Shown here: piece by piece, positions 1 through 50,784 of the stretch
Layout: each line of letters opens with the position of its first letter
How positions within the stretch are numbered: position 1 is the stretch's first letter
DNA from: Sphingobium jiangsuense
Lineage (GTDB): Bacteria > Pseudomonadota > Alphaproteobacteria > Sphingomonadales > Sphingomonadaceae
Assembly: GCF_014196495.1 (NCBI RefSeq)
Contig: NZ_JACIDT010000020.1
Span: 1-64,000, forward strand
Length of the DNA: 64,000 bases
Direction: 5' to 3'
Notes under the pieces: generated by a model
Told to the model about the DNA's origin: nothing
The model's database searches: none
The model's input: the letters and a program-made list of their open reading frames with translations, nothing else
Program-made: the position numbers and the translations under genes

Positions 1-372
1 ATAATAACCCAAACCTCTAAGACGAGGGCGAACGGAGGTCCCGCTCTAAACCTTTTCTTTTCTCCGTCATGCCAGCGAAGGCTGGCATCTCAGGAGGAGG
101 CGCGCGACATGGCCTACGGCCCCAGCGTTGACCTTCGGCCCTCCGGGTCGCTGGGGTGAAGATAAGGAAGGGTGGTAGCCCCCAAGAGCAGCCCTTCCGC
201 AAGCAGGCCTGCAAGCCTCATCATGGAAATAAGCGCAATTGCCGTTCTTCCTTAACCCCTCGAAAAGAAATGGAAATTATTATGGGCCGTCGGGCGCCTC
301 CGAATCCGCGTGAAAAGCGGGCAAAGGGGCGCTGCGATTTAAAAGATTGAAATTACGGTCGTTAACAGTGCC
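1..372. other. Non-coding leader region upstream of the EAL gene
   Basis: No credible coding region is seen here. Short open frames on both strands have no recognisable domain or convincing ribosome-binding site. The left part holds a hairpin repeat (separate entry at 65-160). The right part, roughly 200-372, is less GC-rich and contains A/T-rich stretches near 260-290 and 340-365. It probably carries the promoter of the downstream c-di-GMP gene; I could not fix -35/-10 boxes. Confidence 0.5.
65..160 (+). repeat. Two-hairpin REP-like element, copy 1 (expanded second loop)
   Basis: The first hairpin has 8-bp perfect arms at 69-76 and 81-88 with a GAAG loop, preceded by CGTC. After a spacer rich in GGAGG and GCGCGCGAC comes a second hairpin, ccccagcg at 120-127 paired with cgctgggg at 149-156. 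In other copies this second loop is 4 nt; here it is 21 nt (128-148). The right end is TGAAG instead of the TGACG seen elsewhere. The same architecture recurs at 7548, 27184, 28443 and 50405. Confidence 0.8.
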
Positions 373-7547: not shown

Positions 7548-7625
7548 CGTCACCCCAGCGCAGGCTGGGGTCTCAGGCCATGGCGCGCGCCGCCTCCCAA
7601 GATGCCAGCCTGCAATGGCATGACG
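7548..7625 (-). repeat. Two-hairpin REP-like element, copy 2
   Basis: Relative to copy 1 this lies in reverse orientation. It begins CGTCA, then a ccccagc/gctgggg hairpin. A spacer containing GGCGCGCGCC follows, then an atgccagc/ggcat hairpin with one mismatch, ending TGACG. It is preceded by the leader GGCGGACCTTCGCCTCTAC, also seen before 27184 and 55127. It fills most of the gap between the HNH gene and corC. Confidence 0.8.
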
Positions 7626-16938: not shown

Positions 16939-19827
16939 ATGAACATAATCGCCCGTTCGCGCCTGACGCACTCGCTTGCCCTTATCCTCGCCCTTGCCGG
17001 TGGCTGGTCCGTCCAGATCCACGCGCGCGAGGTCGCGCCTGCCGCCGCCACGGCTGCGCGGCAGGAGGCGCCCCGGCCCTGGCTCTACGAGAACAGCGAC
17101 GTTCCCATCGATCCGGCCTGGCTGTTCGGGGAACTGCCCAACGGCCTGCGCTATGCGATCCGTCGCAATACGGTGCCGCCGGGGCAGGTGTCGATCCGCC
17201 TGCGCATCGATGCCGGGTCGCTGATGGAGCGCCCGGACGAGAAGGGCTATGCCCACTTCATGGAGCATCTGACCTTCCGCGGCTCCAAATATGTGCCGGA
17301 CGGCGAATCCAAGCGGCTGTGGCAGCGGCTCGGCGTGACCTTCGGCAGCGACAGCAACGCGCAGACGACGCCGACCGGCACCACCTATGCGCTCGACCTG
17401 CCCAATGCCTCGCCCGCCGGGTTGGACGAGAGCGTGAAGATCCTCGCGGGCATGATGACCGATCCCAATATCATCCCGGTCGCCGTGGATGCGGAACGGG
17501 CGGTCGTGCTCGCGGAGATGCGCGAGGGCACCAATGTCGGCACCCGCGTGGGCGACGCGACGCGGGCGCTGTTCTTCGCCGGGCAGCCGCTCGGCAGCCA
17601 TGCGCCGATCGGCACGGCCGAAACGCTCAACGCCGCGACCGCCGCGACGCTGAAGGCGTTCCACGACCGCTGGTACCGGCCCGCCAATGCGGTGATCTCC
17701 GTCTCCGGCGATATCGACCCCAAGGCGATGGAAGCGCTGATCCGCAAATATTTCTCCGGCTGGAAGGCGACCGGCAAGACCGCGCCCGCCGCCGATTTCG
17801 GCAAGCCCGATGCCGACGCGCCGACCAGCGCCGTCGTCGTGCAGCCCGGCCTGCCCACCACCGTCACCGTCGCCTGGCTGCGCCCGTGGCAGCCCAAGGC
17901 CGACACCATCGTCTATAACCAGCGCAAGCTGGCGGACATGGTCGCGCTCCAGATGATCAACCGCCGTCTGGAGGAGGCCGCGCGCCGGGGCACGGCCAGT
18001 TTCCTGCAGGCGAGCGTCGATGTGCAGGACGTCAGCCGCTCGGTGAACGGCACCTTCCTGTCGATCACCGCGCTGGGCGAGGATTGGGAAAAGGCGTTGC
18101 AGGACGCCCGCGCGATCATCGAGGACGCCAAGCGCGCGCTCGCGACGACGCAGGAGATCGACCGCGAATTCGCGGAAATGGAAACCGTGCTCGCCATCGG
18201 CGTCGAGAATCAGGATACCGAGCCCAGCGCGCGGCAGGCGAGCGATCTGGTGTCCGCTGTCGATATCCGCGAAACCACCGTCTCGCCGCAGGCCGCGCTC
18301 GATATCTATCGCAGCGCCCGCGCGATCATGACGCCCGACTATATGCTGGAGGCGACGCGCCGCACCTTCACCGGCGACGCCACCCGCGCGATGCTGGTGA
18401 TGCCCAAGGCCCAGCCCAATGCCGAGGCGCGCCTCGCCGCCGCGCTGGAAACGCCGGTGGAGGCGGCGAGCGACGTGCGCCTGTCCGCCAGCACGGTGAC
18501 GATGGACGACCTGCCGAAGCTGCCGCCCGCGGGCAAGGTGGTTTCGGACGAGCAACTGGGCACCTCCGGCATCCGCCAGATCGCCTTCGCCAACGGCGTG
18601 AAGCTGATGCTGTTCGCCAATGACGCCGAAACCGGCAAGGTCCGCGTCAATGTGCGCTTCGGCCATGGCATGCTGGACCTGTCGCCCCGGCAGGTGGAGC
18701 CGACATGGGCGGCCAATTATGTGCTGGCGGCCAACGGCATCGGCAAGCTGGGCCAGCGGGAGATGGACGACCTCACCAACGGCCGCCGCCTGGGCTTCGA
18801 TTTCGGCATAGACGACGACGCGTTCGAGCTGGGCGCGCTGACCCGCCCGGCCGATTACAAGGACCAGTTGCGGCTGTTCGCGACCAAGCTCGCCTTTCCC
18901 GGCTGGGCGGGCGAACCGGTGGAGCGGGCCAAGGCCGGGCTGCTGGCCGCCTATGACGTGTCCTCCACCTCGCCCAATGCGGTGCTGGGGCGCGATCTCG
19001 TCTGGCTGCTGCGCGACAAGGACATGCGCTTCCGCACCCCCGACAAGGCGGAGATTTCCGCGCTGACGCCCGACCGGTTCAAGGCGTTCTGGGCGCCCAT
19101 CCTCGCCTCCGGCCCGATCGAGGTGCAATTGTTCGGCGACGTGAAGCCGGAGGAGGCGGTCGCGGCCGTCGCGGAGACGTTCGGCGCGCTGCCCGCCCGC
19201 AAGGCGCGGCCGGTCGATCCGGCCAATGCCGGCATCCGCTTCCCGGCGCATAACGACAGGCCGCTGGTCCTCACCCATGACGGCGACAGGGATCAGGCGG
19301 CGGCGGTGATCGCCTGGCCGACCGGCGCGGGGCTGGACGACACGCGCGAGGCGCGGCAGCTCGACATACTGGCGCAGATCATCAGCGACCGCCTGTTCGA
19401 AAAGCTGCGCGCGGTCGACGGCGCGGCGTACAGCCCGCAGGCGACCTCCGACTGGCCGCTCGGCTTTGGGAAAGGGCAGGGCTATCTCGCGGTGGTCAGC
19501 CAGCTGAAGCCGGAACGGATCGACTATTTCTACAAGCTGGTCGACGAGATCGCGGCCGATCTGGCGAGCCGCCCGGTCAGCAATGACGAACTGCAACGCA
19601 CGCTGGCGCCGATGGCGCAGCTGCTGACGCGCGCGAGCACCGGCAACGCCTTCTGGATGAGCCTGCTGGAAGGCGGAACGCAGGACCCGCGCACCATCAC
19701 CGCGATGCAGACGATGATGCGCGACACGCTGCAGGTGACGGCGGAGGACCTGCAGACGCTGGCGGCGAAATATCTGGTGGCGGGGAAGAGCTACTCGGTG
19801 ACGGTCTTGCCGAAGGGGGGAGAGTGA
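16939..19827 (+). CDS. Exported M16-family zinc metallopeptidase (duplicated domains)
   Basis: A 962-residue M16 (pitrilysin/insulinase-type) peptidase with an N-terminal signal peptide (about 1-29, ending in IHA). The active-site HxxEH is HFMEH at 106-110 in the first domain. The second half repeats the M16 fold without a clear active site, as expected for the inactive C-terminal lobe. It probably degrades peptides in the periplasm. The gene is followed immediately by the repeat-bounded GIY-YIG unit. The long open frame on the opposite strand is a GC-bias shadow. Confidence 0.95.
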   Translation: MNIIARSRLTHSLALILALAGGWSVQIHAREVAPAAATAARQEAPRPWLYENSDVPIDPAWLFGELPNGLRYAIRRNTVPPGQVSIRLRIDAGSLMERPDEKGYAHFMEHLTFRGSKYVPDGESKRLWQRLGVTFGSDSNAQTTPTGTTYALDLPNASPAGLDESVKILAGMMTDPNIIPVAVDAERAVVLAEMREGTNVGTRVGDATRALFFAGQPLGSHAPIGTAETLNAATAATLKAFHDRWYRPANAVISVSGDIDPKAMEALIRKYFSGWKATGKTAPAADFGKPDADAPTSAVVVQPGLPTTVTVAWLRPWQPKADTIVYNQRKLADMVALQMINRRLEEAARRGTASFLQASVDVQDVSRSVNGTFLSITALGEDWEKALQDARAIIEDAKRALATTQEIDREFAEMETVLAIGVENQDTEPSARQASDLVSAVDIRETTVSPQAALDIYRSARAIMTPDYMLEATRRTFTGDATRAMLVMPKAQPNAEARLAAALETPVEAASDVRLSASTVTMDDLPKLPPAGKVVSDEQLGTSGIRQIAFANGVKLMLFANDAETGKVRVNVRFGHGMLDLSPRQVEPTWAANYVLAANGIGKLGQREMDDLTNGRRLGFDFGIDDDAFELGALTRPADYKDQLRLFATKLAFPGWAGEPVERAKAGLLAAYDVSSTSPNAVLGRDLVWLLRDKDMRFRTPDKAEISALTPDRFKAFWAPILASGPIEVQLFGDVKPEEAVAAVAETFGALPARKARPVDPANAGIRFPAHNDRPLVLTHDGDRDQAAAVIAWPTGAGLDDTREARQLDILAQIISDRLFEKLRAVDGAAYSPQATSDWPLGFGKGQGYLAVVSQLKPERIDYFYKLVDEIAADLASRPVSNDELQRTLAPMAQLLTRASTGNAFWMSLLEGGTQDPRTITAMQTMMRDTLQVTAEDLQTLAAKYLVAGKSYSVTVLPKGGE

Positions 19828-19854
19828 AATTCTAATCCTACTGTCACATTATAT

Positions 19855-19879
19855 CGTCATGCCAGCGAAGGCTGGCATC
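19855..19879 (+). repeat. Left terminal REP-like hairpin of the GIY-YIG unit
   Basis: A perfect 8-bp stem with a 4-nt GAAG loop, headed by CGTC and followed by C. It ends 28 bp upstream of the GIY-YIG start codon, so it sits in the leader of that transcript. Its 25 bases are identical to the reverse complement of the right-end copy. Confidence 0.85.
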
Positions 19880-19907
19880 GTTGGCCTTCGGGCACTATCC
19901 TCGGTAC

Positions 19908-20195
19908 ATGCGATGCGGCTGGACCTATATTCTGACGAACAAGCCGGAAGGCGTCCTCCATGTCGGCGTAACTGCTGATCTTGCGGCGCGGATGATGCAG
20001 CACCGGGCAGGAACGGGATCATCCTTTTGCCGGAAATATGGCTTGAAGCGCCTGGTTTTGGCGGAACAGCATTCCAGCATTGAAAATGCTATTGCTCGTG
20101 AAAAAGCTTTAAAGGCGTGGCAACGCGCCTGGAAGATCAGGCTGATCGAAGACGTTAATCCTAATTGGGAGGATTTGTTCGATCAGCTTGTCTGA
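19908..20195 (+). CDS. GIY-YIG nuclease-superfamily protein (small, single domain)
   Basis: A 95-residue protein of the small GIY-YIG (UPF0213/YhbQ-like) group. Residues 6-22 (TYILTNKPEGVLHVGVT) fill the GIY...YIG positions, here YIL and HVG. R28 in ADLAARMMQH and E59 in IENAIAREKALKAW are the expected catalytic Arg and Glu. The family includes DNA endonucleases and repair enzymes; substrate is unknown. I chose the ATG at 19908. An in-frame TTG at 19881 would add nine residues. It stands alone between M16 and hslU and is bracketed by inverted hairpin repeats, which suggests those repeats are its target or its ends. Confidence 0.85.
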   Translation: MRCGWTYILTNKPEGVLHVGVTADLAARMMQHRAGTGSSFCRKYGLKRLVLAEQHSSIENAIAREKALKAWQRAWKIRLIEDVNPNWEDLFDQLV

Positions 20196-20215
20196 CCTTC
20201 TTCATAAATGCCAGA

Positions 20216-20240
20216 GATGCCAGCCTTCGCTGGCATGACG
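20216..20240 (-). repeat. Right terminal REP-like hairpin of the GIY-YIG unit
   Basis: The exact inverted counterpart of the left-end hairpin, beginning 21 bp after the GIY-YIG stop codon, with the TGACG end pointing away from the gene. A further hairpin (20241-20263) directly abuts it. Confidence 0.85.
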
Positions 20241-20263
20241 AGGGAGGAAGCTTTTTCCTCCCT
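20241..20263 (+). terminator. Hairpin after the GIY-YIG unit
   Basis: A perfect 9-bp stem (agggaggaa paired with ttcctccct) with a short T-rich loop, followed on the + strand by an A/T-rich stretch (attatttta). It could terminate the GIY-YIG transcript. It also lies just beyond the convergent hslU stop and might serve both, though the minus-strand side lacks a T-run. Confidence 0.45.
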
Positions 20264-20289
20264 CCATTATTTTACCGTGTCGCGATAAA

Positions 20290-21591
20290 TCAAAGTATAT
20301 ATTTGCTCAAATCCGTATTCCGCGAAATGCTCGCCAGCTGGCCATCCACATAGGCCGCGTCGATCACCAGCGTTTCGCCGCTGCGGTCCTCCGCATCGAA
20401 GCTCACATCCTCCAGCAGCTTTTCCATCACCGTCTGGAGGCGGCGGGCGCCGATATTCTCGACCTGTTCGTTGACCTCCGCCGCGATGCGGGCGACGGCG
20501 CGGATGCCGTCCTCGGTCATGTCGATCGTCACGCCCTCGGTGCCGAGCAGAGCCTTGTACTGTTCGGTCAGCGACGCCTTGGTGTCGGAAAGGATCGCGA
20601 CGAAATCTTCCTGCGTCAGCCCCTTCAGCTCGACGCGGATCGGCAGGCGGCCCTGCAATTCGGGCAGCAGGTCGCTGGGCTTCGCCACATGGAAGGCGCC
20701 GCTCGCGATGAACAATATGTGATCGGTCTTGAGCGGGCCATATTTGGTCGACACCGTCGTGCCCTCGATCAGCGGCAGCAGGTCGCGCTGCACGCCCTCG
20801 CGGCTGACCGATCCGCCGCGCACGTCGCTGACCGCGATCTTGTCCACCTCGTCGAGGAAGACGATGCCGTTCTGCTCCGCATCGTGCAGCGCGGTGCGGT
20901 TGAGGTCGTCCTGGTCGAGCCGCTTGTCCTGCTCTTCCTCGACCAGCTTGTCCCACGCATCGGCGACACGCATCTTGCGGCGCTTGCGCTGTTGCTGGCC
21001 GAACGCCTTGCCCATCAGGTCGGAAAGGTTGATCATGCCGACCTGCCCGCCGAGGCCGGGTATCTCCATCGGCATGGAGGGGCTGTCGGCGACCTCTATC
21101 TCGATCTCCGTGTCGTTCATCTGGTCGGCTTCGATGCGCTGGCGATAGGCGAGGCGGGTGGCCTCGCTCGCTTCCTTGCCGGTCAGCGCGTCGAGCAGCC
21201 GCTCCATCGCCGCGTCGGAGGCGGCGGCGCGCACCTTCTCGCGGCGGCGGTCGCGTTCGAGCCGCACCGCTTCCTCGACCAGATCGCGGGCGATCTGCTC
21301 CACGTCGCGGCCGACATAGCCGACCTCGGTGAACTTGGTCGCCTCCACCTTCACGAAGGGTGCGTCGGCCAGCTTGGCGAGGCGGCGGGAAATCTCGGTC
21401 TTGCCGCAGCCGGTGGGGCCGATCATCAATATGTTCTTGGGCGTCACCTCGTCGCGCAGATGGGCGGGCAACTGCTGCCGCCGCCAGCGGTTGCGCAGCG
21501 CGACGGCGACCGCGCGCTTGGCGTCCTTCTGGCCGATGATGTGCTCGTCGAGGGCGGCGACGATCGCCTTGGGGGTCAGGTCAGGATTCAT
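20290..21591 (-). CDS. hslU: HslU ATPase subunit of the HslVU protease
   Basis: A 433-residue AAA+ unfoldase that feeds substrates to the HslV peptidase. Walker A GPTGCGKT is at 58-65, with Walker [13 protein letters not shown] in the middle of the protein. The intermediate (I) domain lies between them, and the C-terminus ends DLSKYIL, matching the tail that docks into HslV. The ATG at 21591 gives the canonical N-terminus. It lies 13 bp downstream of hslV in the classic operon. Confidence 0.97.
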
Positions 21592-27183: not shown

Positions 27184-27262
27184 CGTCACCCCAGCGCAGG
27201 CTGGGGTCGTAAGCGATGTCGCGCGCGCCCTCCGGAGATGCCAGCCTGCGCTGGCATGACGG
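27184..27262 (-). repeat. Two-hairpin REP-like element, copy 3
   Basis: It has a CGTCA start, a ccccagc/gctgggg hairpin, a spacer with GTAAGCGATGTCGCGCGCG, an atgccagc/gctggcat hairpin and a TGACG end. It is preceded by the leader ACGGACCTTCGCCTTTAC, nearly identical to that before copy 2. It forms the left part of the larger composite repeat. Confidence 0.85.
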
Positions 27263-27300
27263 ATAAATTTTATGTGGTTATTGTTTATCCTCACCCCGTT

Positions 27301-27430
27301 TGCCCTGAGCTTGTCGACCCGAAGGGCGGGCGGAGTCCAACGGCTGCTTTTCTTGGGGCAAGAAAGAAGGACGGGGCTTCGACATTGAAGCGAGGCGAGT
27401 GACTCGCTCAACAGCCCGAACGGTTTCTTA
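27301..27430 (-). repeat. Composite repeat module B, copy 1
   Basis: About 130 bp shared with 50531-50683. Common segments include GCCCTGAGC, TTGTCGACCC, CAACGGCTGCTTTTCTTGG, GGGCTTCGACATTGAAGCG, AGGCGAGTGACTCGCTCA and CGAACGG-TTTCTTA. In both copies it lies just right of a two-hairpin element. On the minus strand both keep a 25-codon open frame starting MSESLASLQCRSPVL; whether this is translated is unknown. Confidence 0.7.
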
Positions 27431-27555
27431 TGTTAATATTCTGACCGACCGGAAGCACTCTCCCACCGCAACCTGCTCACCAAAGGACATAACCGGCCCG
27501 CATTTTTTCGAATCGTCCCGTTTCCACGGCGGGGAAAAATGCTAGACCGCCGCGC

Positions 27556-28442: not shown

Positions 28443-28520
28443 CGTCATGCCAGCGCAGGCTGGCATCTCCGGAGGGGGCGCGCGACGTGGCTTACGACCC
28501 CAGCCTGCGCTGGGGTGACG
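28443..28520 (+). repeat. Two-hairpin REP-like element, copy 4
   Basis: The cleanest copy: CGTC, an atgccagc/gctggcat hairpin (GCAG loop), a spacer TCTCCGGAGGGGGCGCGCGA, an ACC(ccagc/gctgg)GGT hairpin and a GACG end. It has the same orientation as copy 1 and lies 53 bp after the DUF815 stop. It occupies the gap before the convergent dehydrogenase-like gene. Confidence 0.85.
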
Positions 28521-50404: not shown

Positions 50405-50481
50405 CGTCACCCCGGCGCAGGCTGGGGGTCGTAAGCGATGTTGCGCGTCTTCCGAGATGCCGGCCTGCGTTGGCATGACGG
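50405..50481 (-). repeat. Two-hairpin REP-like element, copy 5
   Basis: It has the same layout and orientation as 27184-27262: CGTCA, a ccc(c/g)gcg..gctggg hairpin, the spacer GTCGTAAGCGATG, an atgccggc-type hairpin with two changes and a TGACG end. It is preceded by the leader CCAGCCTTTAC. It is more diverged than copies 3 and 4. Confidence 0.8.
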
Positions 50482-50530
50482 AGAAATAGCGTTTGAATTT
50501 AGTTGGTTACTGGGTGGCCCTGCCTTCGTT

Positions 50531-50683
50531 CGCCCTGAGCCCTTCGACGCGCTCAGAGGCTTGTCGACCCGCCGCAGGGCGGGCAAAGCCAACGGCTGCT
50601 TTTCTTGGGACAAGAAGAAAGGACAGGGCTTCGACATTGAAGCGAGGCGAGTGACTCGCTCATCAGTCCGAACGGTTTTCTTA
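50531..50683 (-). repeat. Composite repeat module B, copy 2
   Basis: It shares most of its length with 27301-27430. Relative to that copy it carries an extra stretch of about 19 bp (ccttcgacgcgctcagagg) after GCCCTGAGC. The minus-strand open frame MSESLASLQCRSPVL... is kept (start at 50663, 36 codons). It lies next to a two-hairpin element, as in copy 1. Confidence 0.7.
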
Positions 50684-50784
50684 GGTCAGCTATTGTCGGC
50701 AAGTTGACGTTCCATTTTGAAAGGCCTCCAGTTCCGGACTCGCCTGCCTCAATCCACTCGCGAGACAAAAAACCGCCCACACAC

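Follow-up and report, generated by a model that had tools for sequence, protein, structure and literature searches.

The repeats closest to those described here are the CGTC-tagged REPs, which Di Nocera et al. 2013 (PMC3733652) defined by a CGTC tag, an 8-9-bp stem starting A-T and a 4-5-nt loop, and which form head-to-head dimers. In the accessible part of that paper, they are spread over more than one phylum, mostly in alphaproteobacteria, and include the dRS3 repeats of Neisseria; they apparently have no dedicated transposase, no CGTC-flanked RAYT was found, and the term GIY-YIG does not occur. In REP/REPIN-RAYT systems, a small DNA-processing gene is flanked by inverted tagged palindromes, the many intergenic repeats are mostly head-to-head dimers, and enzyme and repeat belong together (accessible part of PMC3733652, supplemented from general knowledge); all of these traits recur in the element described below. 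The 2006 survey of the GIY-YIG superfamily (PMC1564403), in its accessible part, presents the Slx1 family as mainly vertically inherited, treats GIY-YIG enzymes as classic homing nucleases and contains no word beginning 'palindrom'; the accessible part of RepRanger 2025 (PMC12306157) contains no word beginning 'nuclease' or 'GIY'. An earlier report pairing a GIY-YIG gene with REP hairpins was not found in the open-licence literature, in line with the earlier note on this DNA, which knew of no published description.

The window, by which we mean the whole 64-kb stretch of DNA analysed, contains a compact unit in which a single gene is bounded by two hairpins:

19855..20240, + strand: whole unit, tag to tag, 386 bp
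19855..19878, + strand: left hairpin with CGTC tag, 8-bp stem and 4-nt loop, tag outward (exact match and folding)
19908..20195, + strand: GIY-YIG nuclease gene, 95 codons plus stop (ORF translation, Pfam, AlphaFold2)
20217..20240, - strand: right hairpin, exact inverted copy of the left, tag outward (exact match and folding)

The sequence CGTCATGCCAGCGAAGGCTGGCAT is found exactly at both hairpin positions (19855-19878, +; 20217-20240, -) with both tags outward, and the inverted repeat that bounds the unit is exact over 26 bp. Each hairpin folds into a 4-nt unpaired tag, an 8-bp stem and a 4-nt loop (z -4.1 and -4.8). Sequence and ORF are as described in the earlier note, which had reported one 95-residue GIY-YIG protein between exact inverted hairpins with their CGTC/GACG ends outward, and we confirm the observation of a 386-bp unit of gene and hairpins at 19855-20240. 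The median length of such units in the genus is ~382 bp (98 units). The window unit lies between two convergent genes, which we take to encode an M16-like peptidase and HslU (hslU). In the synteny of hslU relatives, only L123 and L127 were used, as loci on the reverse strand were in the wrong orientation. Both have the same two genes adjacent to each other; between them, L127 has neither a GIY-YIG gene nor a hairpin and L123 has a different hairpin pair. The synteny of hslU relatives gave no base-level empty site for the window copy. An Rfam search of 19500-20700 gave no match up to E 1, which indicates that there is no self-splicing intron at the window gene and rules out a known RNA element.

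The window hairpins fit the definition of CGTC-tagged REPs in tag, 8-bp stem and 4-nt loop; whereas the accessible part of PMC3733652 names no dedicated enzyme for those repeats, here a GIY-YIG gene lies inside the CGTC-tagged units and inside those of a GTG-tagged clade. The earlier note had drawn a parallel to REP elements and their RAYT, with a GIY-YIG nuclease in place of the transposase. The parallel holds for the inverted REP flanks, and the GIY-YIG units share with REPtrons a gene flanked by inverted REPs. It ends at the enzyme and the tag: the window enzyme is GIY-YIG and not HUH/Y1, with no Y1 match in its own genome (G000), and the unit tag is CGTC (GTG in one clade), whereas the RAYT tag is GTAG.

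The protein encoded at 19908-20192 matches Pfam GIY-YIG (PF01541, E 4.8e-11), and its AlphaFold2 model is a confident GIY-YIG fold (pLDDT 96). Slx1, UPF0213, UvrC and I-TevI are nearest in fold comparison, with similar scores that do not place the protein between the Slx1-like and the UvrC/homing lineages; in sequence, it matches the UPF0213 structures 1zg2 and 1ywl. Like Slx1-like and UPF0213 proteins, it is a stand-alone minimal GIY-YIG domain, with a sequence match to UPF0213 and a fold match to Slx1. It differs from them in that the unit gene is multicopy and apparently insertable, not vertical, and in that N84, present in 112 of 114 genus proteins, would, if equivalent, be the C-terminal Asn that the Slx1 cluster reportedly lacks (accessible part of PMC1564403). 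With free-standing GIY-YIG homing endonucleases of the I-TevI type it shares the fold, the catalytic motif and selfish spread, whereas no added DNA-binding domain is apparent in its 95 residues (Pfam, AlphaFold2 model), no intron was found, and the unit appears to move with its own hairpin ends into a site that is hairpin-free when empty.

Catalytic-type positions in the window protein are Y7, H18 (usually Y), G20, R28, H32, E65 and N84. Among the 114 genus proteins, conservation is 113 for Y7, 111 for Y18, 114 for G20, 113 for R28, 112 for H32, 111 for E65 and 112 for N84. The family has the fold and catalytic residues of the GIY-YIG superfamily, but the window copy lacks the YIG tyrosine: its codon 18 (19959-19961) encodes His, as in no other of the 114 proteins. 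This copy may be dead, altered or inactive. Across the gene family, dN/dS has a median of 0.093 with no value >1 (281 gene pairs, which are not independent), an indication of strong purifying selection.

Of the 100 genomes searched, own genome included, 74 contain homologues at E <= 1e-3, and a single genome has as many as 12 matches. A sample of 398 genomes from across the phylum yielded homologues in 120 at E <= 1e-10. The genus set comprised 117 unique genes from 46 genomes, with one duplicate dropped; they were the better-scoring of the matches listed plus five loci found otherwise (L161, L162, L165, L173 and L272), and one gene had too short a flank, leaving 116 testable. The 26-mer test required, on the two flanks, 26-mers tagged GTC or GTG that agree with each other at 18 or more of the 26 positions, with their tags outward. 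Homologues in other genomes do carry such hairpins: 103 of the 116 genus genes passed, counted over elements that are not independent of each other, as compared with 16/3000 random windows in the same loci and 3/718 ORFs of 80-130 aa (620 kb, three relatives), two of these three being GIY-YIG genes. The phylum sample consisted of genes from the best-scoring 88 of 119 other matching genomes plus the second own copy; 48 of its 89 genes with enough flank passed the same test, and a structure-agnostic inverted-repeat test detected 57/89 versus 2/516 controls. A first hairpin finder (CGTC, stem 7/8) detected 23/89 phylum genes versus 1/1268 random windows, an undercount because broken-stem families and the GTG-tagged clade were missed. 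An intermediate test (GTC[AG] 28-mers) detected 98/116 genus genes with a control of 48/1904, which is high because windows could fall near elements; it was superseded by the 26-mer test. By the latter, a matched pair was absent at 13/116 genus and 41/89 phylum genes, some of which have visibly decayed hairpins and others none. We conclude that chance association is ruled out by the controls (reversed hairpin, random windows and ORFs of like size).

In the other sets, matched hairpins were found by the 26-mer test for 14/16 genes on named or MAG contigs, 12/18 in plasmid records and 40/51 on viral contigs. The IMG/VR relatives (L353-L411) thus often have matched hairpins (40 of the 51 testable); units may ride in prophages, or the IMG/VR contigs may be mis-binned. 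Other hairpin sequences flank the gene in Azospirillum, Sinorhizobium, Shinella and Aeromonas, and in Neisseria one copy sits within a dRS3-like cluster. Matches in Planktothrix and Spirosoma near TGTC-tagged palindromes are only suggestive, and a Rhizobium tumorigenes copy (L110) and a Sinorhizobium copy (L114) lack a pair of this kind in the 150 bp around them.

Hairpin sequence follows protein clade. Pairing by the 28-mer test gave 98 genus genes, 96 of them usable after two were dropped for stops or shortness. Across these 96 elements, protein distance correlated with hairpin distance (r 0.573), a value reached by 0/5000 within-genome hairpin shuffles (mean 0.17, max 0.398). When each element was compared with the one encoding its nearest protein in another genome, the two hairpins differed at no more than 4 of 24 positions in 88/96 cases, versus 21% for a random element. 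In G016 and in G018, at least four hairpin types occur side by side in one genome, and a separate protein clade goes with each type. One 8-member clade at first appeared unflanked (L302, L319, L331, L323, L294, L289, L310 and L316); on inspection, its hairpins are nearby and are tagged GTG, not GTC (GTGTTCCCGC / GTGCTCC). Scored automatically for both flanks, six members pass and L289 and L316 fail. Four members from four genomes (L302, L319, L331 and L323) have one common insertion site, with ~1.6 kb of aligned flank.

The earlier note had the hairpin recurring in at least five places of the window, and we located five further sites with hairpins of the same family, at 65, 7548, 27184/27238, 28443/28497 and 50405/50457:

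65..88, + strand: dispersed hairpin of the family, right partner decayed
7548..7625, - strand: dispersed dimer with ACCCCAGC as the hairpin at 7548 and an imperfect second hairpin
27184..27261, - strand: dispersed REPIN-like dimer of the same hairpin family (hairpins at 27184/27238)
28443..28520, + strand: dispersed REPIN-like dimer, hairpins ATGCCAGC / ACCCCAGC (at 28443/28497)
50405..50480, - strand: dispersed dimer, slightly decayed (hairpins at 50405/50457)

Four of the five are head-to-head pairs, those at 7548 and 50405 being imperfect. The own genome contains 164 hairpins within 2 mismatches, as compared with 0 in a reversed-sequence control, and 153 by an exact degenerate pattern, the highest number of the 61 same-genus genomes searched. 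The His18 copy thus lies in the genome that has more family-1 hairpins than any other genus genome searched. An inverted partner lies within 130 bp in 22 of the 30 copies examined, these being the first of the 164 and in some cases two halves of one dimer; in 16/22 the spacing is exactly 30 nt. This agrees with the mostly head-to-head arrangement of CGTC-tagged REPs (accessible part of PMC3733652). The dispersed repeats reported earlier are therefore real, but are mostly REPIN-like dimers and not single hairpins. One further GIY-YIG copy in G000 has another hairpin family, CGTCATGCTGAACTTG.

We assigned the cognate clade by hand to the 61 same-genus genomes. Family-1 hairpins have a median of 24 in the 29 genomes with the cognate clade, none of which has zero, versus a median of 6 in the 32 without it (20 with some, 12 with none). 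For family 2, the median is 4 with the cognate gene (15 genomes, one with none) and 0 without it (46 genomes, 12 with some). There was no convincing GIY-YIG match in G060 (24 family-1 hairpins) or G047 (6), and G024 (17 hairpins) has a fragment of the gene only. The hairpins in G060 and G047 argue against a strict need for the gene.

Intermediates between full element and dispersed repeat were also found. Among the matches listed, a count by eye gave 20 hairpin pairs (+ then -) with spacings of 300-450 bp, of which 18 coincide with GIY-YIG genes already identified; the other two, taken as blind predictions, both held the gene, one intact and one with a stop near the start. Five shorter pairs (unit 147-273 bp) were picked from the matches listed: three hold a gene with an internal deletion and both unit ends kept, as expected of a non-autonomous derivative, and two have no detectable gene trace. 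The own-genome REPIN consensus spacer, CTCAGGAGGCGGCGCGCG, matches the left inner end of the element, CTCAGGCGG.GG.GCGC, and not the right end, which fits internal deletion and not insertion of a gene into a REPIN. Because of these gene remnants and spacer matches, the proposal of the earlier note that the dispersed repeats are non-autonomous derivatives is supported. They resemble MITEs in being short, internally deleted derivatives with ends kept; unlike MITEs, the unit ends in tagged stem-loops, and no consistent target duplication was seen.

Synteny of gene and repeats is not fixed among relatives, where empty, inverted and replaced sites were all seen. A 385-bp unit in G016 occupies a site that is hairpin-free in G030, G022 and G050; G018 is also occupied. 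Between conserved anchors, the distance is 34 nt in the empty alleles (G030, G050); in the occupied G016 allele, the unit is bordered by 14 nt on the left and 18 nt on the right. These 18 nt resemble those of the other occupied allele (G018) but not the sequence of the empty alleles. One locus has the unit of G016 inverted relative to that of G030; the two units are 89% identical and their flanks 96-97%. At another, units only 73% identical lie within flanks of 92.6-94.7% identity, pointing to same-site replacement. The gene of A. lipoferum lies between two complete dimers inside sufB-sufC, and no hairpin was found in sufB-sufC of the four other Azospirillum examined. G059 has three tandem copies 467 bp apart. 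A dispersed REPIN that G016 has and G030 lacks is accompanied by GGTCAT as a 6-bp direct repeat and by a 10-bp fold-back formed from flanking sequence; at the position of a second REPIN, found in G030, G016 has ~26 bp of other sequence. No fixed or consistent target duplication emerges from the insertion sites compared, and the two replacement-like insertions, together with the one with a 6-bp repeat and fold-back, suggest repair without a fixed target duplication.

Two further observations may concern recent copies. Between L156 and L159, the unit is 99.8% identical over 403 bp inside a 96.7% identical stretch, as would follow from recent homogenisation or reinsertion. In G036, four equal-scoring gene copies each sit at a contig end (C17, C28, C39 and C76), suggesting assembly breaks at recent identical copies.

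The comparison shows unit structure, enzyme-hairpin pairing, polymorphism in presence/absence and orientation, and graded internal deletions. Gene and hairpins almost certainly form one evolving, insertable unit. The flanking pairs, together with the empty, inverted and replaced sites, support the suggestion of a minimal mobile element, and on this comparative sequence evidence the 386-bp unit is probably a copy of a minimal autonomous mobile element, with the dispersed REPIN-like dimers as its internally deleted, non-autonomous derivatives. Movement would be best explained with the GIY-YIG nuclease as its agent, which makes the nuclease the best candidate for a mobility enzyme of CGTC-tagged REPs. 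We envisage that it would recognise the hairpin and tag of its own clade, as an extruded cruciform or on single-stranded (lagging-strand) DNA, and nick beside the tag; host repair synthesis or end joining, not a cut-and-paste transposase, would then insert the freed or nicked copy at another place. In the widest form of this proposal, which may well be correct, the nuclease would be the mobility enzyme so far lacking for the entire CGTC-tagged REP superfamily, the dRS3-like repeats of Neisseria among them, and the units a prokaryotic element class with a GIY-YIG nuclease as sole gene, in which the enzyme clade sets hairpin sequence and tag. We know of no bacterial transposable element that relies on GIY-YIG alone, and the proposal, if true, would add a nuclease fold to prokaryotic transposition. 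A cognate nuclease also makes the origin of CGTC-tagged REPs testable. Current annotations of genes of the family read 'excinuclease ABC subunit C' or 'putative endonuclease'; if the proposal is true, these genes would be re-read as coding for mobile-element enzymes.

An alternative that we consider unlikely is homing, in which REPINs are an independent repeat family and a free-standing GIY-YIG gene cuts gene-less REPINs and is copied in by repair. GIY-YIG enzymes are classic homing nucleases (accessible part of PMC1564403), the same-site replacement and the orientation flip resemble gene conversion, the A. lipoferum gene lies between two complete dimers, and covariation of protein and hairpin would follow as well. 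The absence of a self-splicing intron excludes only the intron-borne kind, since the free-standing kind needs none. Observations on the target point both ways. In favour of homing, G016 has a REPIN lacking the gene at a site where the unit of G030 and G022 contains it, although REPIN and unit belong to different hairpin families; against it, at the one well-resolved empty site, the alleles lacking the G016 unit have no hairpin. The REPIN spacer matches the left inner end only, as in deletion derivatives and not in a split target, the remnants are internal deletions, and no extra DNA-binding domain is apparent in the 95 residues.

It is less probable still, and in our judgement very unlikely, that the gene is an ordinary Slx1-like host repair nuclease that processes REP cruciforms and merely tends to sit near REPs. 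In its favour are the similarity of the fold to Slx1 and UPF0213, with which a structure-specific activity on hairpins would agree, and the insertion site common to L302, L319, L331 and L323. Against it are up to 12 matches per genome, tandem copies, different clades with different hairpins in one genome, empty and inverted sites, and deletion remnants bounded by the same hairpins. Movement of the hairpins by a RAYT or other HUH (Y1) transposase, with the GIY-YIG gene as passenger, is suggested by the REPtron-like architecture and by Y1 matches (PF01797) in 28/100 relatives, including the hairpin-bearing G060, but is highly improbable and was rejected as the main reading because G000, with its 153 pattern matches, has no Y1/RAYT match, nor do G016, G030, G022, G018 and G050, the genomes with polymorphic sites, and Di Nocera et al. 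found no RAYT flanked by CGTC (accessible part of PMC3733652).

Other repeats were seen alongside the units and the dimers. In the synteny block of G016 versus G030 (joined coordinate 126314-126470), a palindromic insertion of 156 bp, with CTAAG as its direct repeat, is unrelated to the CGTC hairpins and looks like a different MITE. In the window, a second, longer repeat of ~120 bp, 'cttcgacattgaagcgaggcgagtgactcgctc', follows the REPIN at both 27290-27440 and 50490-50690.
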